A DNA stretch of 15,048 nucleotides from an uncultured Intrasporangium sp. (GTDB lineage Bacteria > Actinomycetota > Actinomycetes > Actinomycetales > Dermatophilaceae): NCBI GenBank assembly GCA_937873285.1, contig CALMNV010000282.1:1-15048 (forward strand), read 5' to 3'. The position numbers and the translations under genes were made by a program. Positions 2 through 14,806 of this stretch are shown piece after piece (position 1 is the stretch's first letter; each line of letters opens with the position of its first letter). The notes beneath the pieces are model-generated. The model ran no database searches and was not told the origin of the DNA. It saw only the letters and a program-made list of their open reading frames with translations.

Positions 2-637
2 GCCGAGCCGGACTACCAGTGGGCCCGGACGGTCGAGGCGGTGACCCGGCTCATCCGGGCGCTCGGTGTCACGCTCACGGTCTCCGTGCACGGCATACCG
101 ATGGCCGTCCCGCACACTCGGCCGCTCGGTGTGACGAGCCACGGCACCAACCCGGACCTCGTCTCCGACAACGACCCCGTGTTCGGCTCGGTCCAGGTGC
201 CTGCGAGCTTCGCGTCCCTGCTGGAATACCGGCTCGGCGAGGCCGGGCACGACGCGATCGGCTTCGCGGTGCACGTGCCCCACTACCTGGGCCCCAGCGA
301 GTTCGCCGACGCCGCGGTGCTCGGGCTCGAGCGGCTGCGCAGCGCGACTGGGCTCGACCTCGAGGTCGCCGCTCTCGAGGCGGCGGCCGGCCGCGGCCGA
401 GCCGAGATCAAGCGCCAGATGGACGAGTCGGAGGAGGTGGCGGCGGTGGTCCACGCGCTGGAGCGGCAGTACGACACGTATCTGGAGGGGCTACGCCAGC
501 GTGGTGCCCTGGCCACCGACCTCGGGGACCTGCCGACCGCCGACGAGCTCGGCGCCCAGTTCGAGGCCTTCCTCAAGGACGTGACGCAGGACGGGCCCGG
601 CGAAGGTGGCGACGCGGCAGCCGGTCGCGGAGCGTAG
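2..637 (+). CDS. PAC2 family protein (5'-truncated by window edge)
   Basis: The frame is open from base 2 to the TAG at 635-637, so the start lies left of the window; the GTG at 41 is internal. The visible 211 residues match the C-terminal two thirds of actinobacterial PAC2 (proteasome assembly chaperone-like) proteins. The signatures are a VSVHGIPMAVPHTRP stretch, then GTNPDLVSDNDPVFGSVQVP, then LLEYRLGEAGHDAIGFAVHVPHYL. A charged, probably helical tail follows (about residues 120-195), typical of the long actinobacterial members. The family's cellular role in bacteria is not settled; a link to the proteasome system is inferred from the eukaryotic PAC2 fold. The gene converges on the polymerase gene, whose stop lies 39 bp away. 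The TAC-poor codon use is normal for the window. Family assignment is firm, exact function unknown. Confidence 0.88.
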   Translation, partial: AEPDYQWARTVEAVTRLIRALGVTLTVSVHGIPMAVPHTRPLGVTSHGTNPDLVSDNDPVFGSVQVPASFASLLEYRLGEAGHDAIGFAVHVPHYLGPSEFADAAVLGLERLRSATGLDLEVAALEAAAGRGRAEIKRQMDESEEVAAVVHALERQYDTYLEGLRQRGALATDLGDLPTADELGAQFEAFLKDVTQDGPGEGGDAAAGRGA

Positions 638-676
638 GCGCCCAGCCCGTGGTGGCAGTCTTTGGTGGGCAGCCGG

Positions 677-2500
677 TCAGCCCTTCGCCTCGCTCCAACG
701 TCGGATGATGCTGGTGTCCGCCACGAAGCGGACCTCCTCGCTGCCGGCCCATCCCCGCACCGCGACGGCGAGCGACTCCTCGAGCGCCCGGGCCGCTGCC
801 TCGGCGGCGACCTGGGGGACGTGGACCAGCAGCTCGTCGTGCAGGCACAGCACGATCTGGCCGCCCAGCGGCCGCACCGCCCACCGCACCGTGGCCGCCC
901 ACGCCTTGAACAGCTCGGCGGCCGAGCCTTGGACCACCGCGTTGCGGGCGTAGCGGGCCCTGGCGGCCGCGCCGTCGTCACCCGGCTGACGTGCTGAGCC
1001 GGGAGCGGGCGGCGAGACGTCGAGGTCATCCAGCGAAGCGTCCCCGCTTGAAGGCGCCGCCGACAGGGCGGTCCGGCCGAGCGGAATGAGCCGGCCGCCG
1101 TGCGTGCCGACGGACCCGCCGTCGGCGGCGGCGGCATACGCCCGGTCGAGCAGGCCCATCGCGACGGGGTAGGCCCGCTCGAGGTCGCGCAGCGCCTCGC
1201 CTGCCGCTCCGGAGCGCTGGCCGTACATCGCGGCGAGCACCGCGATCTTGGCGCGGGGCCGGTCGACGCCGAGCTTGGCCGCGACCGGCGCATAGAGGTC
1301 GTCGCTGCGGGTCGCCTCCGCGAGCGCCCGGTCTCCGCTCACCACTGCGAGCACGCGCGGCTCGACCTGCCCGAGGTCGGCTCGCACGAACACGTGCCCC
1401 GGCTCGGCGCGCACCGCGGGCCGTAGGGGAGCGGGCAGGTTGTGCAGCCCGTGCTGGGCCGTCATCCGCCCCGCCCCGCCGTCGCACGCGCTCCACGAGC
1501 CGCGCAGCCGGCCGTCGGCGCCGACGTGCTCGTCGAGCCACCGGTAGCCGTAGGTCGTGGCCATCCGCTCCTGCTTGCGCCAGCGCAGCAGCGCGTCGAC
1601 GACGGCGTGGGCGTGCCGGTATGGCTCGAGCACGCCCGCCCGGGTGCTGCTCACCTGCACACCGACCGAGGCGAGCAGCTGCCGGACGGCGCCGGGGCTG
1701 CGCAGGTCGGTGTCCTCTCGGCCAGGGGTATGCCGCAGCACGGCACGGTCCCGCTCGGCCCGCAGCCGGGCGGCGTCGGCCTCGCCCGTGGGCCGGGGCC
1801 CGGCCGCCGCGGCGATGAGGTCCTCGGCGGCCAGCCGGTCCAGGGGCAGCCCGTCGCGTTCGAGCTCGAGACAGAGCACCGCGGCGGCCGACTCCGACCA
1901 GGCGCTGCGCTGCAGCCGGTCGCCGCTGCGACCCCCTCGCCGCCGCAGCGCATCGGCCTGGTGTGCCTGGCACCGCAGGGCGAGCTGCCCCAGCAGTCGC
2001 AGCCGCTCGTCGGTGGTCGGCCACGACGTCAGAGCCTCGGGCCGCAGGTGACCGTCGGGCTGCAGCACGTGATCGCCCGAGTCGTCAGCAGGTGCCGACG
2101 CGGCCGCATCGAAGAGGTCGGCCTCGAAGCCCGCGAGCCGGGGTCGAGCCGGGAGGGGGACCTTGTCCAGCGGCAGGCCGCTGCTGGCGGCCCACACGTG
2201 CCCGGGCGAGGCGCGCCAGCCACCGTGGATCAGCCGGTGGGCCTCGGCCAGGTCCCACGTGCGGTCCACCGCCACCCGGGCGGCAACCGCGTCGAGCAGC
2301 CCAAGACGGGCCGACCAGACCACCCAGCGTGCGGGCTGAAGGTGCGCCAGCTCGGAGACGAGCGCGGGCACCCCCGCGCGGGGACAGCCACGCTCGATGC
2401 CCGGCCCGACGGCATACGCCCGGCGCGGCCCGACCACGAGGGCGACGAGGGGGGTGTCGGCCGCCGGCCGCGGCACCCCCGCATCACGCACGGTCACCAC
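677..2500 (-). CDS. Family A DNA polymerase (PolA-like, no 5'-nuclease domain)
   Basis: A 607-residue polymerase of the actinobacterial group usually labelled bifunctional 3'-5' exonuclease/DNA polymerase. All three family A motifs are visible. Motif A is ADLGQVEPR (D375, E380). Motif B is R414-x3-K418-x3-L422-x3-Y426-G. Motif C is LHDELL (H554, D555, E556). The two metal-binding aspartates and the motif B Arg/Lys/Tyr are therefore present. The E. coli Pol I residue Phe762 is Leu422 here. The N-terminal third sits where the proofreading domain would be, but I see no D-x-E exonuclease motif, so proofreading is doubtful. The 5'-3' nuclease domain is absent, making it shorter than PolA (about 900 residues). 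The start is a GTG 24 bp behind the stop of the upstream aminotransferase gene, so the two are probably co-transcribed. A separate full PolA presumably lies elsewhere. The role is likely DNA repair or gap filling (inference). Confidence 0.9.
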   Translation of the reverse strand: MVTVRDAGVPRPAADTPLVALVVGPRRAYAVGPGIERGCPRAGVPALVSELAHLQPARWVVWSARLGLLDAVAARVAVDRTWDLAEAHRLIHGGWRASPGHVWAASSGLPLDKVPLPARPRLAGFEADLFDAAASAPADDSGDHVLQPDGHLRPEALTSWPTTDERLRLLGQLALRCQAHQADALRRRGGRSGDRLQRSAWSESAAAVLCLELERDGLPLDRLAAEDLIAAAAGPRPTGEADAARLRAERDRAVLRHTPGREDTDLRSPGAVRQLLASVGVQVSSTRAGVLEPYRHAHAVVDALLRWRKQERMATTYGYRWLDEHVGADGRLRGSWSACDGGAGRMTAQHGLHNLPAPLRPAVRAEPGHVFVRADLGQVEPRVLAVVSGDRALAEATRSDDLYAPVAAKLGVDRPRAKIAVLAAMYGQRSGAAGEALRDLERAYPVAMGLLDRAYAAAADGGSVGTHGGRLIPLGRTALSAAPSSGDASLDDLDVSPPAPGSARQPGDDGAAARARYARNAVVQGSAAELFKAWAATVRWAVRPLGGQIVLCLHDELLVHVPQVAAEAAARALEESLAVAVRGWAGSEEVRFVADTSIIRRWSEAKG

Positions 2501-2524
2501 CAGCTCGGCCGCCCGGGCCGCGTC

Positions 2525-3676
2525 TCACGTCACGGCCCGGGCCATGCGGGCCACCGCCTCGGCCAGCACGTCGGGCGAGGTGGCCAGGTTGAGCCGGGCG
2601 TGTCCGATCCCGGCCGCGCCGTAGCGGGGGCCGGGCGAGAGGGCCACGCTGCCGCGCTCCCGAAACACGACTGCAGGGTCGTCGCCGAGACCGAGCCCGC
2701 GGCAGTCCAGCCACGCCAGGTAGGTGGCCTCCGGCGGCCGGTATCGGATGTCGGGCAGATGCTGCGCGAGCAGCCGCTCGAGCAGCCTCCGGTTGGCGTC
2801 CACCTCGCGGCGCAGCTGGGCGAGCCACTTCCGGCCGTCGTCGTAGGCCGCCGTCTGGGCCAGCACGCCGAGATGGGTCGCCGAGTGCGTGTGCCACGGA
2901 TGCAGGAGGCGCAGGTCGCCGGCCGCGTCGGCACCGGCGACGAGGACGGCGGCCTTGAGCCCGGCGAGGTTCCACGCCTTGGACGCCGACGTCACGGTGA
3001 AGGCATCCTCCGACCCCGGCACGCGCAGATAGGGGGTGAATCCGGCCGGTTCGTGCACCAGTGGGGCGTGGATCTCGTCGGAGACCACCCGCACCCCGTG
3101 CTGGCGGGCGAGTGCGGCGACCGCGGCGAGCTCTGCGGGTGTCGGCACAGTGCCGGTCGGGTTGTGCGGGTTGCACAGCACGTATGCCGCGCGCTGGCCC
3201 CCCGCCGTCGCGTCGCGGAAGGCGGCGGCGAGGACGTCGAGGTCGAGCCGGCCGGTCTCGCCGAGCGGCGCCTCGAGTGGCCTGCGCCCGATGGCATCGA
3301 CGGCGGAGAAGAAGGCGTCGTAGCCAGGCGTGCTGAGCACGACCGGGCCCTCGTCATCGGTGAGCAGGCGCAGCAGCTCGGACAGGCCACCGATCACGTC
3401 GCGGACGACGGCGACCAGCGCGGGGTCCGGCTCCCAGCGCCACTCGTCGCGGGCAAAACGGACGAAGGCGGCGGCATACGGCTGCGGCCAGGCATATCCG
3501 GTGTCGCCGCGACGCATGGCGCTGGTCACCGCCTCCACCACCGCTGGGCACGGCTCGGCGTCCATCTCGGCCACCCAGAGCGGCAGGACGTCGGCCGGAT
3601 ACAGGCGCCACTTCAGGCTCGTGCGCGATCGACGCAGCTCGTCCTCGGATCCGTCGAGGAGCCGGTGGGAGAGCAT
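2525..3676 (-). CDS. PatB/MalY-type PLP-dependent aminotransferase / C-S lyase
   Basis: A 383-residue class I/II fold-type I PLP enzyme. It has the MalY/PatB hallmarks: an N-terminal LPLWVAEMDAEPCPAVVEA segment, CNPHNPTG at about residue 168, SDEIHAPLV (the cofactor-binding Asp) near 200, SASKAWNLAG with the Schiff-base lysine K233, and a C-terminal HARLNLATS containing the carboxylate-binding arginine. Members cleave the beta C-S bond of cystathionine or cysteine S-conjugates to pyruvate, ammonia and a thiol, and some act as aminotransferases. The length is normal. The ATG at 3674-3676 is chosen because a TAGAGT -10-like hexamer ends exactly 6 bases upstream with no Shine-Dalgarno, which fits a leaderless mRNA. 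It is first in a two-gene unit with the polymerase. A role in methionine synthesis, beside metX about 3 kb away, is possible but inferred; substrate cannot be read from the sequence. Confidence 0.88.
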   Translation of the reverse strand: MLSHRLLDGSEDELRRSRTSLKWRLYPADVLPLWVAEMDAEPCPAVVEAVTSAMRRGDTGYAWPQPYAAAFVRFARDEWRWEPDPALVAVVRDVIGGLSELLRLLTDDEGPVVLSTPGYDAFFSAVDAIGRRPLEAPLGETGRLDLDVLAAAFRDATAGGQRAAYVLCNPHNPTGTVPTPAELAAVAALARQHGVRVVSDEIHAPLVHEPAGFTPYLRVPGSEDAFTVTSASKAWNLAGLKAAVLVAGADAAGDLRLLHPWHTHSATHLGVLAQTAAYDDGRKWLAQLRREVDANRRLLERLLAQHLPDIRYRPPEATYLAWLDCRGLGLGDDPAVVFRERGSVALSPGPRYGAAGIGHARLNLATSPDVLAEAVARMARAVT

Positions 3677-3682
3677 GGGCAG

Positions 3683-3688
3683 ACTCTA
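3683..3688 (-). promoter_or_regulatory. -10 element of a leaderless promoter for the PatB/MalY-type gene
   Basis: Read on the minus strand, TAGAGT is followed by six bases (CTGCCC) and then the ATG. A start point 7 bases past the hexamer would be the A of the ATG. No recognisable -35 box lies 16-18 bp upstream and no Shine-Dalgarno precedes the ATG. Leaderless genes of this layout are common in Actinobacteria. Inference from spacing only. Confidence 0.45.
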
Positions 3689-3757
3689 GGAGACGACGCC
3701 GACATCCTGCGTCGGCCGCCCGACGGGCCGCAGGGCGTGTCGGCGCTTCCCGTGGCA

Positions 3758-3763
3758 TAGGTT
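3758..3763 (+). promoter_or_regulatory. Candidate -10 element (TAGGTT) for the EcsC-family operon
   Basis: TAGGTT lies 30 bp before the chosen GTG at 3793, giving a predicted start point near 3770 and a leader of about 23 nt that contains the AGAGGAG ribosome-binding site. The -35 region is not close to consensus. The divergent promoter of the minus-strand PLP enzyme gene lies about 70 bp to the left, so 3677-3792 is a two-way promoter region. Confidence 0.4.
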
Positions 3764-3780
3764 CTACGGTGGCGGCAACG

Positions 3781-3787
3781 AGAGGAG
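3781..3787 (+). promoter_or_regulatory. Ribosome-binding site deciding the EcsC start
   Basis: AGAGGAG is a good Shine-Dalgarno match. Its 5-base spacing favours the GTG at 3793 over the adjacent GTG at 3790 (2 bases), and it lies downstream of the GTG at 3769. Confidence 0.5.
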
Positions 3788-3792
3788 CAGTG

Positions 3793-4500
3793 GTGGGCAT
3801 CTTCGGACGAGAGTTCGGATCTGGGAAGCAGGACGCCGGGGCGACCCCGGCATCGGTCGGCTCCTCCGGGGCGGCGACCCAGCTGGTCCGGCGGCTGCTC
3901 GACGTCGGCATCGACGGGCGGGGCCCTTTCCGCTCCGCCTCGCAGGTGGCTGAGTCGGCGCTGCAGCGGGCGCGCGGCGACGTGGAGGAGGCCATCCGTA
4001 TCGTGCGCCGCGACCACCGCCGGCTCGCGGCGGTCGGTGGCTTCGGGACCGGCCTCGGCGGCTTCTTCACCATGCCGGTGTCGCTGCCGGCCAACGTCGT
4101 GGAGTTCTACCTGCTCGCGACCCGGCTGACGGCGGCCACCGCGCGCCTACGTGGCCACGACCTCGACGCGCCGCAGGTGCGCACCGCGATCCTGCTCACG
4201 CTCGTAGGGGGCGGCGCTGAGGAGTGGCTCCTCCCGGCCGGGCTTCGGGTGGCGCCGGGGGGTCGGCTGGTTGCGCTTGCCGGTGAGCGGCTGCCGGCGC
4301 CGGCGCTCATGGTGGTGAACAAGGCCGTCGCGTTCCGTCTGCTTGGCCGGTTGGGTCAGGGGGCATTCGCCCGGCTGGGCCGCGCGGTGCCACTCGTCGG
4401 GGGGCTCGCCGGCGCCGCGCTCGATGCCTACCTCCTCGGCCGCATCGCCACGTCCGCGGCCAAGGAGTTCCCGCCCGCCTCGAAGCGGTTGGGCGCGTGA
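3793..4500 (+). CDS. EcsC family protein
   Basis: About 235 residues. The central segment from the RARGDVEEAIRIVRRDHRRLAAVGGF region to GTGLGGFFTMPVSLPANVVEFYLLATRLTAATARL is typical of EcsC-family proteins: a glycine-rich hydrophobic stretch and an amphipathic helix. A second hydrophobic segment, VPLVGGLAGAALDAYLLGRIA, near the C-terminus could associate with membrane. The biochemical role of the family is not established; it is named after a gene beside a Bacillus ABC transporter, but no transporter is present here. Start choice: AGAGGAG at 3781-3787 is 5 bases before the GTG at 3793. GTGs at 3790 and 3769 are in frame; the one at 3769 could serve a leaderless mRNA. It is followed after 28 bp by a DUF1232 gene, a likely operon partner. 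Confidence 0.8.
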   Translation: MGIFGREFGSGKQDAGATPASVGSSGAATQLVRRLLDVGIDGRGPFRSASQVAESALQRARGDVEEAIRIVRRDHRRLAAVGGFGTGLGGFFTMPVSLPANVVEFYLLATRLTAATARLRGHDLDAPQVRTAILLTLVGGGAEEWLLPAGLRVAPGGRLVALAGERLPAPALMVVNKAVAFRLLGRLGQGAFARLGRAVPLVGGLAGAALDAYLLGRIATSAAKEFPPASKRLGA

Positions 4501-4528: not shown

Positions 4529-5020
4529 ATGAGCCGTCTCAAGCTCTTCACGACGGTCGCGGCCGTGCTGCGGATGGCCGGCCGACCGGGCGCTCCGGGT
4601 ATTTCCGAGCGGGTCGACGCCCTGCCGCGGCTGGTGCGGGCGACCGTCGACGGGTCGTATGCCGGGACCACCGTCAAGCGGTTGGGTCTGGTCGTCGCCG
4701 CGGTGGCCTATGTCGCCTCCCCCGTGGACCTGCTTCCGGAGGCGCTGATGCCTGTGCTCGGCATGGCGGACGACGCCGTCGTCGCGTCGTGGGCGATCAA
4801 GGCGCTTCTCGAGGAGACCGACCGCTTCCTTGCCTGGGAGCTCGGCCAGGGACGAAGGCCGGGCCGCACGGTGGTGCCCGGCACGGTCGTCGGCGAGCCC
4901 CCCGCCCCGCAGCAGCGGGCGAACGCCGCGGGGGAGCGGGACGCGCCGCCCGCCGCGGGCCTCCGCGAGGCGGCGACCACCTATCTCCTGGAGTCGGTCC
5001 GGCGGCGGCTCGAGCGCTGA
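4529..5020 (+). CDS. DUF1232 (YkvA-like) membrane-associated protein
   Basis: 163 residues. The diagnostic DUF1232 block is a hydrophobic helix, LGLVVAAVAYVASPVDLLPE, followed by ALMPVLGMADDAVVASWAIKALLEE: the SPxDLxPE and LGxxDD signatures near residues 63-82. The remainder is a charged, proline-rich C-terminal tail. The function of the family is unknown; one membrane segment is expected. The ATG at 4529 is the first good start in frame after the EcsC stop (28 bp gap). The frame stays open farther upstream but there overlaps the EcsC gene, so that part is not used. There is no strong Shine-Dalgarno, in line with translation coupled to the upstream gene. Confidence 0.82.
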   Translation: MSRLKLFTTVAAVLRMAGRPGAPGISERVDALPRLVRATVDGSYAGTTVKRLGLVVAAVAYVASPVDLLPEALMPVLGMADDAVVASWAIKALLEETDRFLAWELGQGRRPGRTVVPGTVVGEPPAPQQRANAAGERDAPPAAGLREAATTYLLESVRRRLER

Positions 5021-5133: not shown

Positions 5134-6627
5134 GTGGAGAAGATCTCGGTCAGCGGGCCCGACCAGCTGCTGGCGGTGCTGCCCTACCAGCTTGGCTTCC
5201 AGCCCCGCAGCAGTGTCGTGATCGCGTGCTTCAGAGGCAGGCGCATGGAGCTCGTGGCCCGGCTCGACGCGGTCCCAGACCCGGCCGCGGCCGTCGCGGC
5301 AGCCGAGGTCCTGCCGCCATTGCTGCACGAGGCCCCGGACTGGGTCCTTCTCGTCGGCTACGAGGAGCAGCCGGGCGAGTGCCTGCCGCTGTCCCAGGCC
5401 CTTGCCGCCGCCCTGCGGCGGGAAGGCATCGAGATCGGCCAGCGCGTCGTCGTGCGGGCCGGTCGCTGGTTCTGCCTCAGCTGCGAGGACTGCCCCGCCG
5501 ACGGCACACCGCTGCTGCGCGACGCCGACGTGCCGGGACTGGCGGGATATGTCGGCCTCGGGCGGTCGGTGCTGCCGGGCCGCGACGACCTCGGCGCCCT
5601 CGTTCGGCCCGCATCCTCCCGAGACGCTCGCGGAGCGGAGCTCGGAGAGCAGGTGCAGGCATGGCAGCGCCGACTCTCCAACGCGCACGCCGACTATCGC
5701 GCCTGGCAGGCGGCTCGGTGGGATCGCGCCTTCCATGACGAGGTGTTGGCCGGGAACGCCGGGAACGCCGGGACCGCCGGGAACGCCGGGAACGCCGGGA
5801 ACGCCGGGAACGCCGGGAACGCCGGGAACGCCGATGACCTCGTCCGCGCCGAGCCGGCCAGCGGTTCACAGCCGAAGGGCCCGGCCCGACCCACCGACCT
5901 GCAGCGGCTGCTCGGAGAGGCTCTGCGGACGTGGAGGCTGCTTCTCGACGGGCGGCTCGACCGCCTGCTCGCGCTGTCTCCCGGCGGCCCCTTCGTGGTG
6001 GAAGGGGGCCCGGGACTCGGCGCAGGGGGAGGGGGCACCCGCGACGGCGGCTGCAGCCCGGGCTCGGATGCTGCCCATCTCGCCGTGCTGGTCGGCTCGC
6101 TGCGGCATCACGGGCTGCGAGACGCGCTCATCGCCTGGCTGTGCCCCGGCACTCTGGGCAGAGAGGCGCTCGACCCGGACGTCGCCCGCGCCCTCGAGCA
6201 GCATCTCGGCCCCCCGCGTCGCAGTCCCGACCCCCGGGTTGGCGGCCGGACGTCCGGCGCGGGAGAGGACGCGCTCGCGGTCTGGTCAGCTGATGCGTGG
6301 CCCGAGCTGGTGGCCGCTCGGCTCGCGGCTCTGGCCCGCCGGGTTCCGGGCGAGCACGCCACTCCCGTGCTCGCGGTGGCGGCGTGTCACGCGTGGTGGC
6401 GAGGCGACGGTGCCCGCGCCGCGGTGGCTCTCGAGCAGGCCGCGCTGCTGGAGCCGGACCACCGGCTCTGCCACCTGTTGCGACAGATGGTCTCCCAGTG
6501 CATCCGACCGGGTGCACGGTCGGCCACAACCGGGCGCTTCGACGCCTGGACCGGCGACACGGTGGGCCTCAGGCACCGGTTTCGAGACGTGGACCGGCGG
6601 CTCGATGACCGCGCGGAGGACAGGTAG
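5134..6627 (+). CDS. DUF4192 domain-containing protein
   Basis: 497 residues from the GTG at 5134. The N-terminus, VSGPDQLLAVLPYQLGFQP followed by RSSVVIACFRG, is the standard opening of actinobacterial DUF4192 proteins and supports this start. A Cys pair (CLSCEDC) with downstream DGTPL and the C-terminal AVAACHAWWRGDGARAAVALEQAALLEPDH block also match the family. The function is unknown; it is probably cytoplasmic, as no signal or membrane segment is seen. Two low-complexity insertions stand out: nine Gly-Asn-Ala/Thr units at about residues 207-233 coded by a perfect 9-bp tandem repeat, and a glycine-rich loop near residues 290-310. No good Shine-Dalgarno precedes the GTG. The stop codon overlaps the probable -10 box of the riboswitch promoter. 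Confidence 0.82.
   Translation: MEKISVSGPDQLLAVLPYQLGFQPRSSVVIACFRGRRMELVARLDAVPDPAAAVAAAEVLPPLLHEAPDWVLLVGYEEQPGECLPLSQALAAALRREGIEIGQRVVVRAGRWFCLSCEDCPADGTPLLRDADVPGLAGYVGLGRSVLPGRDDLGALVRPASSRDARGAELGEQVQAWQRRLSNAHADYRAWQAARWDRAFHDEVLAGNAGNAGTAGNAGNAGNAGNAGNAGNADDLVRAEPASGSQPKGPARPTDLQRLLGEALRTWRLLLDGRLDRLLALSPGGPFVVEGGPGLGAGGGGTRDGGCSPGSDAAHLAVLVGSLRHHGLRDALIAWLCPGTLGREALDPDVARALEQHLGPPRRSPDPRVGGRTSGAGEDALAVWSADAWPELVAARLAALARRVPGEHATPVLAVAACHAWWRGDGARAAVALEQAALLEPDHRLCHLLRQMVSQCIRPGARSATTGRFDAWTGDTVGLRHRFRDVDRRLDDRAEDR
5752..5832 (+). repeat. Nine tandem 9-bp units (GGGAACGCC) inside the DUF4192 gene
   Basis: Nine copies of GGGAACGCC lie head to tail; only the third differs (GGGACCGCC, giving Thr for Asn). 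Eight identical copies imply recent slippage or selection against drift. As the unit is three codons, copy number can change without breaking the frame. It codes for (Gly-Asn-Ala)n between the helical region after the Cys pair and the C-terminal domain. Confidence 0.97.
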
Positions 6628-6639: not shown

Positions 6640-6755
6640 GGTCATGAGTGCCAGCGTCAAGCCCCGGCTCGCTGGTCGGCAACCCTCCTGCGCGGCGGGG
6701 TGCCCCGGGTGAGGACCTGGCCGCACCCCATCCAGGTGCGTGCAAGTGCGCGACC
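6640..6755 (+). ncRNA. SAM-IV riboswitch upstream of metX
   Basis: The sequence matches my memory of the SAM-IV consensus nearly base for base. GGTCATGAGTGCCAGCGTC is at 6640-6658. P1 pairs GGTC (6640-6643) with GACC (6714-6717). P2 pairs CCAGC (6651-6655) with GCTGG (6671-6675). The conserved GGCAACCCTCC and GGGGTGCCCCGGGTGA blocks follow. A downstream hairpin GCACC/GGTGC (6723-6737) is followed by the GTGCAAGTGCGCGACC 3' element typical of type IV. It binds S-adenosylmethionine. The 3' end is only two bases from the AAGGAG ribosome-binding site of metX, so control of translation initiation by SAM is the simplest reading (inference); no separate terminator hairpin with a U run is seen. Confidence 0.92.
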
Positions 6756-6768: not shown

Positions 6769-7950
6769 ATGACCCTCACCGTCGACCCGCGGGGGACCCG
6801 GCACACCGGGGGCGCCTGGCGGCCCGGGGACCCCGTCGGGCGGCGGTCGTTCCTCACGATCGGGGACCTGCCGCTCGAGCTGGGCCGCATCCTGCCCGAC
6901 GTGGTGGTCGCCTACGAGACGTGGGGCACGTTGAGCACCGCTCGCGACAACGTGGTGCTCGTCGAGCACGCCCTGACCGGCGACAGCCACGTCGTCGGTC
7001 CCGCAGGGGACGGGCACTCCTCGCCCGGCTGGTGGGAGGGCCTGATCGGGCCCGGGTGCCCGCTTGATACGAGGACGTGGTTCGTCGTGGCGGCAAACGT
7101 CCTCGGGGGATGCCAAGGGACGACCGGACCCGCGAGCCGGGCACCCGACGGCCGACCGTGGGGCGGCCGATTCCCGGCCATCACGATCCGCGACCAGGTG
7201 CGCGCGGAGGCATCCCTGCTGCAACGGTTGGGGATCTCCCGCCTGGCGGCGGTCATCGGTGGGTCGATGGGTGGCATGCGAGCCGTCGAATGGGCAGCCT
7301 CCTATCCCGAGCGCGTGGAGCGATCCATCGTGCTGGCGAGCACGGCATACGCCACCGCCGACCAGATCGCATGGTGCCAGCCCCAGCTGCTCGCGATCCG
7401 GCAGGACCCGGCCTTCGCTGGGGGGGACTACTACGACACGGGACGCAGCCCGGACGCCGGCCTCGGCCTGGCCCGACGCATCGCCCAGATCACCTATCGC
7501 ACCGACCTCGAGCTCGACGAGCGCTTCGGCCGAGAGCCGCAGCACGGCGAGAACCCCTTCGTCGGTGCAGACCGTGGCAGGTTCGCGGTGGAGAGCTATC
7601 TCGACCATCACGCAGGCAAGCTCGCGCGCCGGTTCGACGCGAACTCGTATGTCGTGCTCACGGAGGCGATGAACTTCCACGACGTCGGTCGGGGCCGTGG
7701 AGGACTGGCTGCCGCTCTCGCGAAGGTCACTGCAGCGTGCACGGTCGTTTCCGTCGACACCGACCGGCTCTACCCTCCGCGGCTGTCGGACGAGCTGGCG
7801 AGCCTGCTCCCGCACGCGGTTCGCGCCACGATCTCGTCGCCGCATGGCCATGACGGCTTCCTGCTCGAGGCCGAGCAGGTCGGGCTGGTGATCCGCGCCG
7901 CCCTGCAGGGTCCTGCAGGTCGGCGCGACGGGCACCGGCCCGAGTGTTGA
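6769..7950 (+). CDS. metX: Homoserine O-acetyltransferase
   Basis: 393 residues, normal for the family. MetX transfers acetyl from acetyl-CoA to L-homoserine, giving the O-acetylhomoserine used for methionine synthesis by sulfhydrylation or trans-sulfuration; it is cytoplasmic. Family marks are VVVAYETWGTLS, then NVVLVEHALTGDSHV, the oxyanion-loop NVLGGCQGTTGP, and an alpha/beta-hydrolase nucleophile elbow GGSMGG with S166. The other catalytic residues are D332 in VDTDRLYPP and H361 in HGHDGFL. The Cys/Gly-rich NVLGGCQGTTGP is typical of MetX rather than MetA. The ATG at 6769 is fixed by AAGGAG 6 bases upstream and by the SAM-IV riboswitch. An in-frame upstream extension from 6700 lies within the riboswitch and is not coding. 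No metY is adjacent. A hairpin follows directly after the stop, so metX appears to be a single-gene transcript. Confidence 0.95.
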   Translation: MTLTVDPRGTRHTGGAWRPGDPVGRRSFLTIGDLPLELGRILPDVVVAYETWGTLSTARDNVVLVEHALTGDSHVVGPAGDGHSSPGWWEGLIGPGCPLDTRTWFVVAANVLGGCQGTTGPASRAPDGRPWGGRFPAITIRDQVRAEASLLQRLGISRLAAVIGGSMGGMRAVEWAASYPERVERSIVLASTAYATADQIAWCQPQLLAIRQDPAFAGGDYYDTGRSPDAGLGLARRIAQITYRTDLELDERFGREPQHGENPFVGADRGRFAVESYLDHHAGKLARRFDANSYVVLTEAMNFHDVGRGRGGLAAALAKVTAACTVVSVDTDRLYPPRLSDELASLLPHAVRATISSPHGHDGFLLEAEQVGLVIRAALQGPAGRRDGHRPEC

Positions 7951-8747: not shown

Positions 8748-10493
8748 GTGCCGAAGGCGACACCCACCGGAGCCCCCCGAACCCTGCCCAAAGTGTTCCA
8801 ACACGACCCCATCCGAGCCCTGCTCGCCAAGGGCACTGCAACCGGGCAGGTGACCGGCGCCGACATCGCCAGCGCTCAGTCGCAGGCCGGTCTGGACCTT
8901 CGGCAGATGAAGCCGGTGCTCACCACGCTCGAGGCCCACGACATCGAGATCGTGGTCGTGCCGGCCGAGCGGACGGACGCGAACGGCGCGTCGAGCAATC
9001 GTGGAGCCAAGGGAGGCAGCGTGGCCACCAAGCCGAGGACCAGCGCAGGGACCAAGCAGGAAGCGACCAAGCAGGAAGCGACCAAGCAGGCCGCGACCAA
9101 GCAGGCAGCGAGCAAGCGCACCGCAGCCAAGGCGACCTCGGCGAAGGTTGCCGCAGGGTCGGGCGCAGCCGCTGCCGAAGCGGCGCCCAAGGGGGCGGCG
9201 GCCGCGGGCGCGCCCCCGACCGCGCGTCGCACGTCCAGCAAGGCCACGACCAGCGCAGGCTCGACCAGCAAGGCCGGAGCCGCGCGGGGTGGCGGCAAGG
9301 CTGCAAGCCCTGCCGACGGAGCAAGCGCCGAGCCCGCCGAGGCGGACCTCGGGCCGATCGACGGTGAGCCGGTCGAGCTCGGCGACGTCCAGCTCGACGA
9401 CGCCGACGTCGTCGTGGTCGAGGCCGACCTCGTGGACGCTGCCGACGAGCCGGACGGTCCCGCCGACCCGGCGGGCACGGCCACCGAGGCTGGCGCCGCC
9501 GCAGAGGAGACCGAGGAGACCGGCTTCGTCATCCGCGACGACGACGAGGACGACGCTCCGGCGCAGCAGGTCGTGACCGCCGGTGCGACCGCTGACCCGG
9601 TCAAGGACTACCTCAAGCAGATCGGCAAGGTCGCGCTGCTCAACGCCGAGCAGGAGGTCGAGCTCGCCAAGCGGATCGAGGCCGGGCTGTTCGCCGAGGA
9701 GAAGATCAACGCCGGCGACAAGATCGAGATGAAGCTCAAGCGCGAGCTCTGGTGGATCGCTCAGGACGGCAAGAAGGCCAAGAACCACCTCCTGGAGGCC
9801 AACCTCCGCCTCGTCGTCTCCCTCGCCAAGCGCTACACCGGTCGAGGGATGCTCTTCCTCGACCTCATCCAGGAGGGCAACCTCGGTCTGATCCGGGCGG
9901 TCGAGAAGTTCGACTACACCAAGGGCTACAAGTTCTCGACCTACGCGACGTGGTGGATCCGGCAGGCCATCACACGCGCCATGGCCGACCAGGCGCGGAC
10001 CATCCGCATTCCCGTGCACATGGTCGAGGTGATCAACAAGCTCGCCCGAGTGCAGCGGCAGATGCTGCAGGACCTCGGTCGTGAGCCCACCCCGGAGGAG
10101 CTCGCCAAGGAGCTCGACATGACCCCCGAGAAGGTCGTCGAGGTCCAGAAGTACGGCCGGGAGCCGATCTCGCTGCACACGCCGCTCGGAGAGGACGGCG
10201 ACAGTGAGTTCGGTGACCTCATCGAGGACTCTGAGGCGGTGGTCCCGGCCGACGCGGTGAGCTTCACCCTCCTTCAGGAGCAGCTGCACTCCGTGCTCGA
10301 CACCCTGTCCGAGCGCGAGGCTGGAGTCGTGTCGATGCGGTTCGGCCTCACCGACGGCCAGCCGAAGACGCTCGACGAGATCGGCAAGGTCTACGGGGTG
10401 ACGAGGGAGCGGATCCGCCAGATCGAGTCCAAGACGATGAGCAAGCTGCGCCACCCGTCCCGCTCCCAAGTGCTGCGCGACTACCTCGACTGA
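8748..10493 (+). CDS. sigA: Primary (housekeeping) RNA polymerase sigma factor
   Basis: 581 residues, group 1 sigma-70. Domains in order: a region 1.1-like N-terminus (about 2-70); an Ala/Lys-rich linker with TKQ[EA]A pentapeptide repeats (102-126); an acidic stretch (about 200-280, ending RDDDEDD); region 1.2 from [21 protein letters not shown] (283 on); region 2 with [37 protein letters not shown] and the -10-reading [20 protein letters not shown]; region 3; and region 4.2 with the [21 protein letters not shown] helix-turn-helix that reads the -35 box. The length and RpoD/HrdB-like conservation make this the essential sigma factor. The GTG at 8748 has only a weak GAAAGG site about 10 bases upstream. 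It has its own promoter (TATAAT at 8575) and a hairpin behind it. The N-terminal 280 residues are low-complexity and fast-evolving, while the C-terminal 300 are highly conserved. Confidence 0.96.
9051..9125 (+). repeat. 15-bp repeats encoding TKQxA in the sigma factor linker
   Basis: Four 15-bp units, ACCAAGCAGG plus AAGCG, AAGCG, CCGCG and CAGCG, followed by one degenerate unit (9111-9125, SKRTA). They code for [20 protein letters not shown] in the basic linker between region 1.1 and region 1.2. The first two units are identical at DNA level, which suggests recent slippage. Confidence 0.92.
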
Positions 10494-10507
10494 CCGTGTC
10501 TTGGTCG

Positions 10508-10536
10508 CCTCGGCCACACGGCGTATGCCGCCGAGG
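10508..10536 (+). terminator. Hairpin behind the sigma factor gene, carrying the GTATGCCG octamer
   Basis: Outer arms CCTCGG (10508-10513) and CCGAGG (10531-10536) enclose an inner stem CGGC (10519-10522) and GCCG (10527-10530) with a GTAT loop; a CCACA bulge lies on the 5' side. It begins 15 bases after the stop and has no U run. It fits a rho-independent-like terminator of sigA, or an RNA 3'-end stabiliser. The loop and 3' inner arm form a copy of the dispersed octamer. Confidence 0.5.
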
Positions 10537-10600: not shown

Positions 10601-11398
10601 ATGGACTTCGTGCCCGCCACCGCCATCGTCACCGGGTCCGACTCCGGGATCGGCAGGGCCACCGCGGTGGCCCTCGCAGCCGCCGGCATGGACGTCGGAA
10701 TCACGTGGAACAGCGACGAGGCAGGCGCGGAGGCAACGGCGGCTGAGGTCCGCGAGCACGGCCGGAGCGCGTTCGTCGCCCACCTGGACGCGACCGACCT
10801 GACCCGCTGCGGCGACGTCGTCGACGGCCTCGCCTCGCGGCTCGGCGGCCTGGACGTCTTCGTCAACAACGCCGGCACCGGCGACAACGGGCCCTTCCTC
10901 GAGATCTCGCTCGACGCGTGGCGGCATACCGTCGCCACCGACCTCGACGGCGCGTTCGTCTGCCTGCAACGAGCCGCACGGCACATGGTGCGGGCCGGTC
11001 GCGGCGGCCGTCTCGTCGCGGTGACCAGCGTGCACGAGCACCAGCCGCGGGTGGGGTCCAGCGCCTACGACGCCGCCAAGCACGGGCTTGGCGGGCTGGT
11101 CAAGACCATCGCGCTCGAGCTCGGGTCGCACGGGATCACCGCCAACGCCGTGGCACCCGGTGAGATCGCGACGCCGATGACCGGCCAGACCGACGAGGAC
11201 CCACGCCGCACCTCCCGGCCGGGGGTGCCGCTCGGCCGTCCGGGCGACGCCCGCGAGGTCGCCGCCGTCATCGCGTTCCTCGCGTCGCCCGCCGCCGGCT
11301 ACGTGACCGGCGCCTCGTGGGTCGTCGACGGCGGAATGCTCCAGATGGGCCCGCACGCCGGGTCGCATCTGGACAGTAACGCCTGGCGCGAGGGCTGA
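10601..11398 (+). CDS. SDR family NAD(P)-dependent oxidoreductase
   Basis: 265 residues, classical short-chain dehydrogenase/reductase. The Rossmann cofactor motif is TGSDSGIG (11-18); NNAG is near 88-91. The catalytic S143 sits in VTSVHE, and Y156-x3-K160 in AYDAAKHG. The structural N-x-V-x-PG motif appears as ANAVAPGEIATPM, and the C-terminus ends FLASPAAGYVTGASWVVDGG. The fingerprint is that of 3-oxoacyl-ACP reductase-like or glucose 1-dehydrogenase-like SDRs, but the substrate cannot be deduced. Absence of an acidic residue at the end of strand 2 (ITWNSDEAGAEAT has Asn/Ser there) leans towards NADP(H). The ATG at 10601 has GGGGGT 4 bases upstream. It is followed 10 bases later by a phosphoesterase gene, so the two are probably one transcript. 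Confidence 0.92.
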   Translation: MDFVPATAIVTGSDSGIGRATAVALAAAGMDVGITWNSDEAGAEATAAEVREHGRSAFVAHLDATDLTRCGDVVDGLASRLGGLDVFVNNAGTGDNGPFLEISLDAWRHTVATDLDGAFVCLQRAARHMVRAGRGGRLVAVTSVHEHQPRVGSSAYDAAKHGLGGLVKTIALELGSHGITANAVAPGEIATPMTGQTDEDPRRTSRPGVPLGRPGDAREVAAVIAFLASPAAGYVTGASWVVDGGMLQMGPHAGSHLDSNAWREG

Positions 11399-11408
11399 GG
11401 GCGGGCCA

Positions 11409-11918
11409 GTGCGGCTGCTCGTGATGGCCGACACCCACGTGCCGCGGCGGGCCCGGGCGCTGCCGCCGCCGCTCTGGGCGGAGGTCGAGCGGGCCGACCT
11501 CGTCGTGCACGCGGGGGACTGGGTGCAGGCCACCCTGCTCGACGAGCTCGAGGCGCGGGCGCACCGGGTGCTCGGGGTGTGGGGCAACAACGACGGGGCG
11601 GACCTGCGGTCGCGGCTGCCCGAGGTGGCCTACTGCGAGATCGAGGGCGTCCGCGTGGGCGTCGTGCACGAGACCGGCCCGAGCCAGGGGCGCGAGCATC
11701 GGCTCCGCGCCCGGTTTCCAGACCTCGACCTGCTCGTCTTCGGGCACTCGCACATCCCCTGGGACACCGACGTCGACGGGTTGAGGCTGCTCAACCCGGG
11801 CTCGCCGACAGACCGCCGGCGTCAGCCGCACGGCAGCTACCTCACGCTCACCGTCTCGCGGGGCGAGATCTGCGACGTGTGCCTCCATCGGGTGCCGCCG
11901 CGGCCGGGGCACGACTAG
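11409..11918 (+). CDS. YfcE/MJ0936-type metallophosphoesterase
   Basis: 169 residues of the calcineurin-like superfamily. All metal-ligand motifs are present in order: D8-x-H10 (MADTHVP), HAGDW (about 34-38), GNND (about 58-61), VVHE (about 85-88) and GHSHIPW (about 112-118), followed by LLNPGSPTDRRR, which is characteristic of the YfcE group. Such enzymes are small Mn- or Ni-dependent phosphodiesterases of unclear natural substrate. The start is the GTG at 11409, ten bases after the SDR stop, implying coupled expression. The gene ends at a palindromic hairpin shared with the converging gene. Confidence 0.9.
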   Translation: MRLLVMADTHVPRRARALPPPLWAEVERADLVVHAGDWVQATLLDELEARAHRVLGVWGNNDGADLRSRLPEVAYCEIEGVRVGVVHETGPSQGREHRLRARFPDLDLLVFGHSHIPWDTDVDGLRLLNPGSPTDRRRQPHGSYLTLTVSRGEICDVCLHRVPPRPGHD

Positions 11919-11930
11919 CGAGCACGCGTC

Positions 11931-11960
11931 GCCCGCCGGCGGGCTCAGCTGGCCCTGAGC
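11931..11960. terminator. Two-way terminator between converging genes
   Basis: GCCCGCCGGCGGGC (11931-11944) is a perfect 14-bp palindrome lying in the 26-bp gap between the phosphoesterase stop and the stop of the minus-strand ATP-binding protein gene. Directly beside it GCTCAG (11943-11948) and CTGAGC (11955-11960) form a second hairpin within the last codons of that gene. Being palindromic, it can act in both directions. No U run. Confidence 0.6.
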
Positions 11961-12346
11961 CGAAGGTGCAGCCTCACGCTCGTCTCTCGAGCGGCGTGCG
12001 AGATGGTCAGGGCGTCCGCGAGGTGCTGGGCCAGCCACAGGCCGCGACCGCCGAGCGCGTCGGGGGTGGGAGAGCGGACGGCGGGCACGACACCGCTGCC
12101 GTCAGCGTCCCGCACGTCGAAGACGAGCTCGTCGCCGGTGTGCAGCACGTGCACGACGCCCTCACCGCCGCCGTGCATGATGCTGTTCACGGCGAGCTCG
12201 TGGACGGCCAGCACGATGTCGCTCACCCGGTCGGGCGTGTGCGCGGAGGCCACGTCCGCCACCGCCGAACGCAGGTCGTGCAGGTCGGAGCGCCCGAAAG
12301 CGATCCGAGCCAGCTCCCGACCTGTTTCAGGCGTGGCGTCGTCCAC
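11945..12346 (-). CDS. RsbW-like ATP-binding protein (GHKL/HATPase_c_2 anti-sigma type)
   Basis: About 133 residues, a single GHKL ATPase domain. The N box is AVHELAVNSIMHGGG, the G1 box DVRDADGSG, and the G2 box GGRGLWLAQHLADAL; the N-terminus (SDLHDLRSAVADVA) matches stand-alone RsbW/SpoIIAB relatives that are common in Actinobacteria. Such proteins often bind sigma factors or anti-anti-sigma factors, but no sigma-B-type gene or STAS partner lies beside it, so the target is unknown. Start: GTG at 12344-12346 gives a compact domain. An ATG at 12398-12400 would add 18 residues; it has GAGGAGG 13 bases upstream, but its codons are far poorer in third-position GC and include a TTA, so I prefer the GTG. 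It lies downstream of the transglutaminase gene on the same strand, with a hairpin between. Confidence 0.82.
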   Translation of the reverse strand: MDDATPETGRELARIAFGRSDLHDLRSAVADVASAHTPDRVSDIVLAVHELAVNSIMHGGGEGVVHVLHTGDELVFDVRDADGSGVVPAVRSPTPDALGGRGLWLAQHLADALTISHAARETSVRLHLRLRAS

Positions 12347-12435
12347 GTGATCATCGTGCCACCTCGAATCCGCCGGAGGGGCGGTTGGGACTAACAGCAT
12401 TCGCGCCGACCGGCCTCCTCGGTGCGGGGCGAGCC

Positions 12436-12459
12436 GCGCCACCGGGTGCCGGGCGGCGC
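12436..12459 (-). terminator. Candidate hairpin terminator behind the transglutaminase gene
   Basis: GCGCC (12436-12440) pairs with GGCGC (12455-12459), with an inner CGG/CCG stem, 13 bp past the transglutaminase stop on the minus strand. It lies in the 126-bp gap before the ATP-binding protein gene, which suggests that the two genes may not be a strict operon. No U run, moderate stem only. Confidence 0.35.
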
Positions 12460-12472
12460 CGGACGCCATCGG

Positions 12473-14806
12473 CTAGCGCCCCGAGCCGCGCCGATCTCGC
12501 CCGTGGCCCAGCCGGTCGGGAAGCCGACGCCAAACGGACACGCCAGCCGCCGGCCACAGGAAGGACCGCGCCCGGGTGCGCCACGCCCGGGTCCGGCTCA
12601 CCCCGTGGCGGATGAAGCGGATGTCGCGGTGCAGGGTCTCGGCCTCCTGCGCCGACGTGCGGTCCGGCCGGTCGTAGCGGGCCTTCTCCAACGTCGCGGT
12701 CACCCGGCGCATCGCCTCCGCCTGCTCGGCGTCGAGGTCGCCGTGCCGGATGAAGTGCTCACGCCACTGGCGCAGGGTGCCGCCTTCCGGCGCGTCGATG
12801 CCGAGGTCGCGCAGGTGGAAGGTGAGCTCCTCCCACTCGGCCTCGATGAGCTCGCGTTGGCTCACCGCCGCCCGGCGTCGCCGCAGCCGGACGAGCCAGG
12901 CGGTGAGCGGCAGCGTGAACGTCGCGAGCAGACCGACGAGGAGGGCCGCGGCGAGGACGGCGTTGCGCGTGCTGAGGATGCCCCTGACACCCGAGCCCGC
13001 CGACTCGGCCCCGGTCGGCAGGGACCCGGCAGCCGTCGTCGCCGCGGTCGCGCTCGGCGTCGCGCCGCCGATCGGTTCGTCGACCGCGGCCGAGCGCCCA
13101 CCGCCGGTCGGTCCCGCGCCGCTGCCCGTGACGGCATACGGCGGGGGGCTGCCGGACCGGACGCCCGGGGTCGGCTCGAACCGGAGCCAGCCGAAGGAGC
13201 CGAAGTACAGCTCCGGCCAGGAGTGGGCGTCGGAGGCGCGCACGACGTACTCCTCGCCCGCTCGGGTGCCGGGCAGGAAGCCGATCGCCATCCGGGCCGG
13301 GATGCCCTGGGCGCGGGCGAGCATGATCATCGCCGTGGCGAACTGGACGCAGTAGCCGCGCCGGCTCTCGTAGAAGGAGCGGATCGGCTCGACGGTCCGG
13401 CCCTCGGCGTCACGCACGGGGGGACCGAGGTCGAGGCTGTAGGTGTAGCGCGTCGTGTCCCGCAGGTGGTCCTGGATGGCGATCGCCTTGTCGAGAATGT
13501 TCGTCCGCCCTGCCGTCACCTCGTCGGACCAGGTGGTCAGCAGCTGGCGCGCCACATCAGGCAGGGCGAGGTCCTCCATCGAGACGTCGGGACCGTGCGC
13601 GCTCGCGCTCGACGTTGCGCGCAGCAGCGGTGGGGGCGGGGCGAGGTCGGCGTAGGTGACGCGGTAGCCGCCCACGGGTGCGGCCACGCGCACGTCGCGC
13701 GTCACCGGGTCGATGGACCACGGCGTGCCCTCCATGGACACGGCAACGACCGGGTAGGGCGCGGCGACGCGCGGCGGCCGCAGGCTGTTGGCCGTGACGG
13801 TGAGCAGGTAGTCCCTGCGGCTGGAGGCTGGAGGCAGCGGCGCCGGCTGCTGCCCAGCGCCCGGTCTGCCCACGGTGAGCCACTCGCCCCGGGTGTAGTT
13901 GCTGGTGGCGACGACGCGCAGCGGGCTCGGGGACGGCGCGGTGGTGGTGTAGGTCAGCACCGGGGTCTGGTCGCGGTCGATCAGGCTCTGGGTCACGTCG
14001 AGGGTGTCGTTGAAGCCGACCGTCCCACCTCCTCCCGCCCCGGTGGTGCGGCCCAGCCCTTCGGTGAGGTATCGCGTCGGGAGGTGCGGCACGACGACGG
14101 GCACGGCGAGCGCCAGCGCGACGCCCGCGGCGCCGAGGCGCACCGCCCCGCCGCTCAGCGACCGGAGCGCCCGACGGGCACCCACGACGTCCTGGATGGC
14201 GCGGTCGTCGGAGCGCACGCCGGTGGTGCCCCACCGGCCGAAGGAGGCGCGGGCGGTGGTGTGCAGCATCGCCAGCCACAGCACCGTCGGCACGAGGAAG
14301 AAGCGCACGTCGAGCGCGGCGTCGCCGTTGGCGGACGTGATGAGGTATGCCGTGAGCAGCGCCAGTCCCGCAGCCGCCGGGCTGCGCCAGGTGGCCGCGA
14401 ACGCGTCGACGAAGAGTGCGACGACGGTGACGGCGATCACGAGCCAGACGGCGACCCCGGTGGTCAGCGGCGCCGGCGCGGTGTACTTCTGGATCGTCTC
14501 CTGCGCCTCGAGGCCGAGCTCGTTGAACCGCAGCACCGTCTCCCAGGTGGGCAGCCCCCACGAGAAGGTCGACCCGGCGAAGCGCAGGCACAGGGCGTAG
14601 GCCAGCACCCCCGTCTGGCTCCCGACGACCGCCAGACGGGAGCTCAGGGCGCCCCGAGCCAGCACGCCGACCCCGCCGACGAGGGCAATGGCTCCGGCCG
14701 CGTTCGCCATCCACGCGGCGCTCGTGAACAGCGTCGTCAGCGGATAGAGCGCCGACGCGGTGGCGAGTGCGGCGAGCAGCGTGATCCGCCATCGGCGCCG
14801 GCTCAT
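12473..14806 (-). CDS. TgpA-like membrane transglutaminase (DUF3488 + transglutaminase core)
   Basis: 777 residues. The N-terminal third has several hydrophobic helices separated by short loops (about residues 8-260), as in the DUF3488/TgpA_N region. A large extracytoplasmic part follows with the transglutaminase core: C486 in RRGYCVQFATAMIMLARAQG, H528 in SDAHSWPELYF, and the third catalytic-position acid as Glu in WLRFEPTPG (E544), usual for this family. A Ser/Ala/Gly-rich linker precedes one more membrane helix (about 612-640, VLAAALLVGLLATFTLPLTA), and the C-terminal tail resembles DUF4129 and is cytoplasmic. The enzyme is presumed to act on peptides or proteins outside the membrane; no substrate is known here. 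The ATG at 14804-14806 overlaps the TGA of the DUF58 gene as ATGA, showing translational coupling; the frame is open upstream but that part would overlap the DUF58 gene. Confidence 0.93.
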   Translation of the reverse strand: MSRRRWRITLLAALATASALYPLTTLFTSAAWMANAAGAIALVGGVGVLARGALSSRLAVVGSQTGVLAYALCLRFAGSTFSWGLPTWETVLRFNELGLEAQETIQKYTAPAPLTTGVAVWLVIAVTVVALFVDAFAATWRSPAAAGLALLTAYLITSANGDAALDVRFFLVPTVLWLAMLHTTARASFGRWGTTGVRSDDRAIQDVVGARRALRSLSGGAVRLGAAGVALALAVPVVVPHLPTRYLTEGLGRTTGAGGGGTVGFNDTLDVTQSLIDRDQTPVLTYTTTAPSPSPLRVVATSNYTRGEWLTVGRPGAGQQPAPLPPASSRRDYLLTVTANSLRPPRVAAPYPVVAVSMEGTPWSIDPVTRDVRVAAPVGGYRVTYADLAPPPPLLRATSSASAHGPDVSMEDLALPDVARQLLTTWSDEVTAGRTNILDKAIAIQDHLRDTTRYTYSLDLGPPVRDAEGRTVEPIRSFYESRRGYCVQFATAMIMLARAQGIPARMAIGFLPGTRAGEEYVVRASDAHSWPELYFGSFGWLRFEPTPGVRSGSPPPYAVTGSGAGPTGGGRSAAVDEPIGGATPSATAATTAAGSLPTGAESAGSGVRGILSTRNAVLAAALLVGLLATFTLPLTAWLVRLRRRRAAVSQRELIEAEWEELTFHLRDLGIDAPEGGTLRQWREHFIRHGDLDAEQAEAMRRVTATLEKARYDRPDRTSAQEAETLHRDIRFIRHGVSRTRAWRTRARSFLWPAAGVSVWRRLPDRLGHGRDRRGSGR

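Follow-up and report, generated by a model that had tools for sequence, protein, structure and literature searches.

Why should a single octamer, GTATGCCG, recur throughout a stretch of 15,048 bases from an uncultured Intrasporangium sp. (contig CALMNV010000282.1; this whole stretch is called the window here)? A sequence-only reading of the window had pointed to 12 copies, and all were recovered, five on the plus and seven on the minus strand (Table 1; gene boundaries come from a crude, purpose-made gene caller). Indeed, GTATGCCG is the top-ranked octamer of the window, with 12 copies against 0.41 under an order-2 Markov model, and dinucleotide shuffles of the window (n = 200) gave an expectation of 0.19 (standard deviation 0.41, maximum 2), which bears out the strong over-representation that had been claimed. 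The codon assignments of that reading also agree with the present gene calls: five copies lie in sense as Tyr-Ala, three in antisense to Ala-Tyr, two to His-Thr and one to Gly-Ile-Pro, and the remaining copy is intergenic. We tentatively suggest that GTATGCCG is an uptake-sequence-like "self" word of the Dermatophilaceae that is read by strand by a sequence-specific protein.

The draft genome to which the window belongs (1,836,834 bases in 344 contigs, 58% complete) contains GTATGCCG 1,341 times (673 and 668 copies on the two strands) and the reversed, uncomplemented word 189 times (89 and 100); the word is iterated genome-wide, as had been proposed, and its count is not near expectation. When synonymous codons were shuffled within each called gene, the 11 in-gene copies of the window fell to 1.2 (50 shuffles; standard deviation 0.8, maximum 3), the 105 in-gene copies in 157 kb of the same genome (the window plus 20 contigs, hereafter the own-genome sample) to 11.6, and the 491 in-gene copies in 800 kb of Phycicoccus elongatus Lp2, a quarter of that genome, to 45.6. 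Since about nine-tenths of the in-gene copies are removed by these shuffles, base composition, protein sequence and codon choice do not explain GTATGCCG. Intergenic copies are present as well (21 of 127 in the own-genome sample, 174 of 674 in Lp2), and in Lp2 their density of 12.0 per 10 kb compares with 7.5 in coding DNA. The earlier argument that a protein or codon-pair preference is insufficient was therefore correct. It is true that the genic copies use a small number of residue pairs (Tyr-Ala, Ala-Tyr), which holds for any fixed word, and a mutation bias or a codon or residue-pair preference might accumulate a word without function. This explanation is strongly disfavored and very improbable: only about one in ten in-gene copies survives synonymous shuffling, and the intergenic copies, the conservation of the exact octamer and the orientation-dependent spacing described below speak against it. 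Codon-pair bias is ruled out by the shuffles together with near-miss controls. CGGCATACG is also part of a sequencing primer, presumably the Illumina P7 adapter. Adapter contamination is excluded, since the flanks differ between copies and the copies align between species.

Carriage of the word is restricted to one family and has changed state repeatedly within it. With a threshold of at least 2 copies of GTATGCCG per 10 kb, 20 of 36 genomes of the Dermatophilaceae (one per genus, the window's own genome included; the family was identified from named relatives) were carriers, with a maximum of 4,724 copies in 4.2 Mb and near-equal strand counts, and the other 16 had about 0.8 or fewer per 10 kb. 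Carrier genomes hold hundreds to thousands of copies, in a family that includes soil and sludge bacteria. No carriers were found in other families of the order, where all 22 genomes had about 0.6 or fewer per 10 kb. Of 296 genomes drawn from the class, 290 lie outside the family, and none of these exceeded about 0.6 per 10 kb; four of the six family members were carriers. A second set of 50 genomes, reached via named loci and overlapping in part with the family set as judged from equal counts, contained 30 genomes with at least 2 per 10 kb, 4 with 0.5 to 1.9 and 16 with 0.15 or fewer. The carriers among these 50 include Terrabacter, Humibacillus xanthopallidus, Intrasporangium, Knoellia, Janibacter sp. 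HTCC2649, Pedococcus bigeumensis, P. cremeus, Phycicoccus elongatus, Tetrasphaera australiensis, Flexivirga, Leekyejoonella and Arsenicicoccus cauae; the lowest class holds strict-sense Phycicoccus, true Janibacter, Marihabitans, Piscicoccus, Mobilicoccus, Kineosphaera, Luteipulveratus, Arsenicicoccus piscis and Nostocoides sp. Soil756. On a quick tree of PolA-like proteins (81 rows), a single-gene tree that is weak in places, the carrier state (at least 1.5 per 10 kb in the locus) switches at least 13 times.

The word is also sharp. Across 44 carrier loci, GTATGCCG occurs 508 times versus 19.1 expected, and most of its 24 one-base neighbors are near expectation, the top ratio being 4.0 on nine copies; C or T is favored as the base after the octamer and, in Lp2, G comes next. 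Conservation of the exact octamer exceeds that of near-miss controls. In 11 loci of the Terrabacter group, aligned GTATGCCG was intact in 752 of 958 pairs versus 54,849 of 125,092 for octamers of the same composition, where aligned pairs share ancestry and hence are not independent, as is true of many other counts given here. The T at base 4 was kept in 0.81, 0.87 and 0.65 of aligned pairs in the Terrabacter, Knoellia and Pedococcus groups, respectively. Its retention was 0.09, 0.27 and 0.20 in HTATGCCG near misses (only 5, 3 and 1 query sites), 0.30, 0.35 and 0.41 in other nTATGCnn, and 0.51, 0.16 and 0.55 in other nTATGnnn, so that the margin over controls in Pedococcus is small (0.65 vs 0.55). 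In strict Phycicoccus, the sole copy of GTATGCCG was not retained.

Copies in the same orientation avoid each other. Among the 674 copies in the 800 kb of Lp2 (345 plus, 329 minus), only one same-strand pair was closer than 50 bp, with 11.9 expected; the ratio was 0.92 at 50 to 100 bp and 0.46 to 0.70 at 100 to 1,000 bp, and for opposite-strand pairs it was 0.79 to 2.0. When strand labels were permuted 2,000 times over fixed positions, same-strand pairs within 1 kb in Lp2 numbered 151 of 475 versus 237.5 ± 10.9, and in nine other sets pooled, 448 of 1,102 versus 539.9 ± 16.2; in neither case was any of the 2,000 permutations as low. Single sets gave P values below 0.015 in genome entry G007, Terrabacter, Flexivirga, the own genome, six com loci and ten PolA loci. 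No significant strand effect was seen from 1 to 2.5 kb (P = 0.39 in Lp2, 0.14 pooled). The avoidance within about 1 kb indicates that the word is read in one orientation. Hence, the earlier statement that the word has no strand bias stands for counts but fails for spacing, which orientation governs. Like the FtsK-orienting polar sequences (KOPS), GTATGCCG is a short, iterated, asymmetric word; unlike them, it has no polarity along the 800 kb of Lp2, where the strands are mixed in each of eight 100-kb bins and no replication-strand bias is seen. KOPS-like polarity, already argued against on the window, is thereby ruled out. Within reading frames in 400 kb of Lp2, 148 copies are sense and 97 antisense, and with both orientations common in genes, a role at the RNA level is unlikely.

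Dialect words were sought in loci poor in GTATGCCG and counted over 64 genome entries, in which DSM 29435 is present twice (G016 and G069), as judged from equal counts. In 100 kb of Humibacillus sp. DSM 29435, GGATGCCG occurs 93 times versus 8.5 expected; its genome counts are 3,816 in DSM 29435, 3,838 in a second Humibacillus, 3,949 in G026, 1,336 in Nostocoides sp. Soil756, 1,239 in Terrabacter MAHUQ-38 and 260 to 1,038 in the remainder. A relaxed dialect, GTATGNCG (GTATG, then A/G/T, then CG), reaches 5,477 copies in Flexivirga, 4,011 in G027 and 3,747 in G003, with intermediate counts (about 500 to 2,150) in G004, G005, G011, G018, G033, G034, G078, G091, G100 and G101 and about 20 to 330 in other carriers; in Flexivirga endophytica, GTATGGCG, GTATGACG and GTATGCCG occur 58, 52 and 58 times. 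New dialect copies sit at new places, and old copies are not edited in place. Conversion in place is rejected, since none of 140 aligned GTATGCCG copies reads GGATGCCG in Humibacillus; none of these sites reads GTATGCCG there either, the commonest readings being GTACGCCG, GTACACCG and GTAGGCCG (60 of 140), and 40 of 164 aligned GGATGCCG copies also read GGATGCCG in relatives. Of the loci L023 and L032, one, from a metagenome-assembled genome, has both GTATGCCG (6.2 per 10 kb) and GGATGCCG (7.8); the other, its sister on the tree, has only GGATGCCG (16.9 per 10 kb in 6.5 kb), which may be a dialect transition adjoining Phycicoccus.

The Janibacter-Marihabitans clade is enriched in none of GTATGCCG, GGATGCCG and GTATGNCG but has an unrelated word of its own, CGAAGGG[G/A] (loci L042, L046, L062, L063, L064, L066, L077 and L128-L132). 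In seven loci of this clade, CGAAGGGG occurs 90 times versus 14.0 expected and CGAAGGGA 35 times versus 8.8, and 100 kb of J. melonis holds 69 copies of the Janibacter word versus 11.8 expected. In 11 of 12 other groups, CGAAGGGG is near or below expectation, and an outgroup locus has 2 versus 0.8. This word is less sharp than GTATGCCG; no comparable word was found in 100 kb each of Phycicoccus sp. HDW14 and Mobilicoccus caccae. CGAAGGG[G/A] lies on both strands and mostly in genes (15 of 69 copies in J. melonis are intergenic), and a hairpin of opposed copies was seen by eye.

A mobile element and a restriction-modification island lie within the longest word-free gaps of Lp2. Seven gaps in the 800 kb exceed 5.5 kb (6.5 expected) and four exceed 8 kb (0.8 expected). 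A gap of 13.9 kb contains a phage integrase with type I HsdM, HsdS and HsdR, and the adjoining gap of 9.0 kb contains a TrwC relaxase and HepT; a gap of 11.4 kb has an N6/N4 methylase next to a res-like gene (by eye), one of 10.2 kb has KdpD, and three of 5.7 to 6.4 kb have ordinary-looking genes (by eye). Tetrasphaera phage TJE1 is near background, with 2 copies in 49 kb and 0.94 expected. Opposed copies less than 45 bp apart are in excess in Lp2 (16 plus-minus and 8 minus-plus pairs, 5.3 expected each), and several of these pairs form terminator-like hairpins. The dialects, the conservation of the exact octamer, the orientation-dependent spacing and the word-free mobile and restriction-modification regions are new in this analysis.

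The copies in the window are given in Table 1 along with other features of it. The SAM-IV riboswitch (99 bits) is directly upstream of a gene of the alpha/beta-hydrolase fold, probably metX. Most of the window's other top-ranking octamers and decamers derive from the 9-base repeat.

TABLE 1 Copies of GTATGCCG and other features in the window
Feature	Position	Strand	Context
GTATGCCG	91..98	-	Antisense in gene 41-637 (+), Gly-Ile-Pro
GTATGCCG	1132..1139	-	Sense in PolA-like gene 677-2500 (-), Tyr-Ala
GTATGCCG	1728..1735	+	Antisense in PolA-like gene 677-2500 (-), His-Thr
GTATGCCG	2410..2417	-	Sense in PolA-like gene 677-2500 (-), Tyr-Ala
GTATGCCG	3182..3189	+	Antisense in gene 2525-3676 (-), Ala-Tyr
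GTATGCCG	3472..3479	-	Sense in gene 2525-3676 (-), Tyr-Ala
GTATGCCG	4657..4664	+	Sense in gene 4529-5020 (+), Tyr-Ala
GTATGCCG	7343..7350	-	Antisense in gene 6769-7950 (+), Ala-Tyr
GTATGCCG	10523..10530	+	Intergenic; predicted hairpin, GTAT loop, GCCG stem
GTATGCCG	10922..10929	-	Antisense in short-chain dehydrogenase-like gene 10601-11398 (+), His-Thr
GTATGCCG	13132..13139	-	Sense in transglutaminase-like gene 12473-14806 (-), Tyr-Ala
GTATGCCG	14345..14352	+	Antisense in transglutaminase-like gene 12473-14806 (-), Ala-Tyr
SAM-IV riboswitch	6640-6754	+	Upstream of hydrolase-fold gene
Tandem repeat, 9-base unit GCCGGGAAC, 9.4 copies	5749-5833		Inside DUF4192-type gene
Tandem repeat, 15-base unit GACCAAGCAGGAAGC, 4.5 copies	9050-9131		Inside predicted gene 8793-10493 (+)

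An exact word that is maintained despite codon preference, split into lineage dialects, missing from some acquired islands and spaced by strand is best explained by a sequence-specific, direction-reading protein that favors word-bearing DNA. We infer such a reader and link it to DNA uptake. Competent cells would prefer DNA bearing the word, transport or processing would begin at the word and proceed to one side or take one strand, and alleles linked to a copy would be imported and recombined more often, so that copies would spread and be kept (molecular drive). The strand rule would be expected if import or processing started at the word and ran one way: within about 1 kb, a further copy in the same orientation would add little, and a copy in the opposite orientation would serve the other direction, so that each strand would be spaced separately. 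With a changed specificity of the reader, old copies would erode and new ones accumulate elsewhere, giving dialects; with the reader lost, the word would vanish. Among the four candidates of the sequence-only reading, an uptake sequence is the nearest and fits most features. Going further, this could be the first uptake-type self-label system of Gram-positives, a directional word with dialects (one of them unrelated, in Janibacter and Marihabitans), driven via natural transformation in many lineages of the family and lost in several; this fuller claim is possible but somewhat doubtful.

Several observations weigh against an uptake word. The strand rule is not predicted by a duplex-binding, orientation-blind word. 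Same-orientation avoidance was not significant in Leekyejoonella (P = 0.10), Tetrasphaera (P = 0.44) and the Humibacillus dialect (P = 0.77), nor was it for the Janibacter word in J. melonis (24 of 54 pairs, P = 0.25) or Marihabitans (6 of 15, P = 0.34). With both strands pooled, spacing in Lp2 is no more regular than random (coefficient of variation, 1.06), and regular spacing regardless of strand is weak or absent. The own-genome sample has no intergenic excess (6.7 vs 8.4 per 10 kb in coding DNA) and no excess of opposed copies less than 45 bp apart (no plus-minus pair, one minus-plus pair). Moreover, the search for the reader covered only seven gene families (ComEC, ComEA, T2SSF, PilM, PF01555, RecC and AdnAB-type), and none of them tracks the word. 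ComEC (PF03772; 33 of 36 family genomes, absent in drafts G000, G032 and G033), ComEA and T2SSF (Tad-type; 54 of 55 genomes regardless of the word) occur also in genomes without it, and PilM, part of the type IV pilus, was found in just 2 of the 36 family genomes. ComEA, with a sequence-pattern match in 18 of 19 com loci, has the same architecture in carriers and non-carriers; no extra domain was seen in carriers, and its architecture was rejected as a discriminator. PilM, ComEC, T2SSF and the methylase family PF01555 were likewise rejected as discriminating genes. We know of no competence in these genera. Micrococcus luteus is reportedly transformed through Flp pili, so the process exists elsewhere among Actinobacteria.

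All sequence features would fit any orientation-reading factor that favors carriers, and the failure of all seven families to follow the word suits another direction-reading DNA process, such as strand-specific nicking, repair or a defense that spares word-bearing DNA; with no positive evidence for any particular one, we consider this unlikely. A Chi-like site would be read in one orientation by an end-resecting helicase-nuclease, AdnAB in this phylum, and each strand would need its own copies. Chi, like GTATGCCG, is an asymmetric, over-represented octamer read in one direction, and Chi words differ between species. Paired frames of AdnA and AdnB size are present in many carriers, and how AdnAB manages a Chi-recognition-type step is stated to be unclear in excerpts of PMC13309787. 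However, such frames are found in both carriers and non-carriers (PDDEXK_1, PF12705, is found in 55 of 55 genomes), and the strong carrier Tetrasphaera australiensis has no AdnB-size hit among the matches listed. RecC is patchy in the family (28 of 76 entries overall): it is present in 8 of 35 entries with at least 2 copies per 10 kb, 1 of 6 that are weak or carry GGATGCCG, 16 of 30 others of the family (G026 included) and 3 of 5 outside it. Since RecC is rarer in strong carriers than in non-carriers, RecBCD is not the reader. The word also lacks a replication-strand bias, whereas 94 of 125 E. coli Chi copies in 500 kb of K-12, a small yardstick, lie on one strand. These show no same-strand avoidance but rather the opposite tendency, which is not significant (33 of 46 pairs within 1 kb vs 28.3 expected). 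Both RecBCD Chi and AdnAB Chi were rejected, and a Chi-like site is quite unlikely. Within 2 kb, same-strand E. coli Chi copies tend to cluster (66 pairs vs 39.2 expected; NC_000913.3, 500 kb, L277-L286).

A methylation target, one of the earlier candidates, would require an orphan methylase that marks one strand of the asymmetric word for repair, segregation or self-recognition. A one-strand mark would yield strand-wise spacing, and excerpts of PMC4390886 describe HIP1 (highly iterated palindrome 1) as palindromic, methylase-associated and replaced by other words in some cyanobacteria. GTATGCCG, however, reverse-complements to CGGCATAC and is not palindromic, so it is no HIP1-type palindrome as had been considered, and the N6/N4 methylase family PF01555, the only methylase family searched, is found in 26 of 55 genomes and is missing from the strong carriers G003, G004, G007, G021, G022, G031, G034, G071, G076, G101 and G106. 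PF01555 is therefore not supported as the common factor, and methylation is an improbable basis for the word. The sharpness of the word makes the remaining earlier candidate, a nucleoid-protein site, unlikely.

How, then, does GTATGCCG compare with known iterated words? To our knowledge, iterated uptake words are established only in Neisseriaceae and Pasteurellaceae, and we know of no report of same-orientation avoidance for them. Campylobacter recognizes methylated DNA. In open-license PMC literature, searched also for uptake words in Actinobacteria, in Gram-positives and in the family and for competence in Tetrasphaera, no report on the octamer or its complement was seen among the titles and abstracts listed, which does not by itself show that it is unpublished. 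Like HIP1, the word is an octamer with hundreds to thousands of copies in coding and non-coding DNA and is replaced in some lineages; unlike HIP1, it depends on orientation. The likeness to the DNA uptake sequences (DUS) of Neisseriaceae and uptake signal sequences (USS) of Pasteurellaceae goes further: an exact, asymmetric word, about one per kb, on both strands and in genic and intergenic DNA, with dialects by lineage, absence after loss in some lineages, a preferred orientation within reading frames and, in Lp2 but not in the own-genome sample, an excess of inverted pairs, several of them in terminator-like hairpins. For uptake words, dialects and inverted pairs are described in excerpts of PMC3630211, and a commoner orientation within reading frames in excerpts of PMC2346458. 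Unlike DUS and USS, GTATGCCG has a high-GC Gram-positive host, an 8-base core, one lineage with a wholly different word, avoidance of the same orientation within 1 kb and no known receptor. We propose that the word may work like DUS and USS and do not file it as one of them, because PilM, the pilus marker tested, is missing from most family genomes. If this is true, an independent case in high-GC Gram-positives, with closely related carriers, switches and losses, would make it possible to ask how such words arise, switch and vanish. Same-orientation avoidance gives a new handle on the mechanism, a word read by strand over about 1 kb, and the protein that reads it, whichever it is, would shape thousands of sites in each genome.

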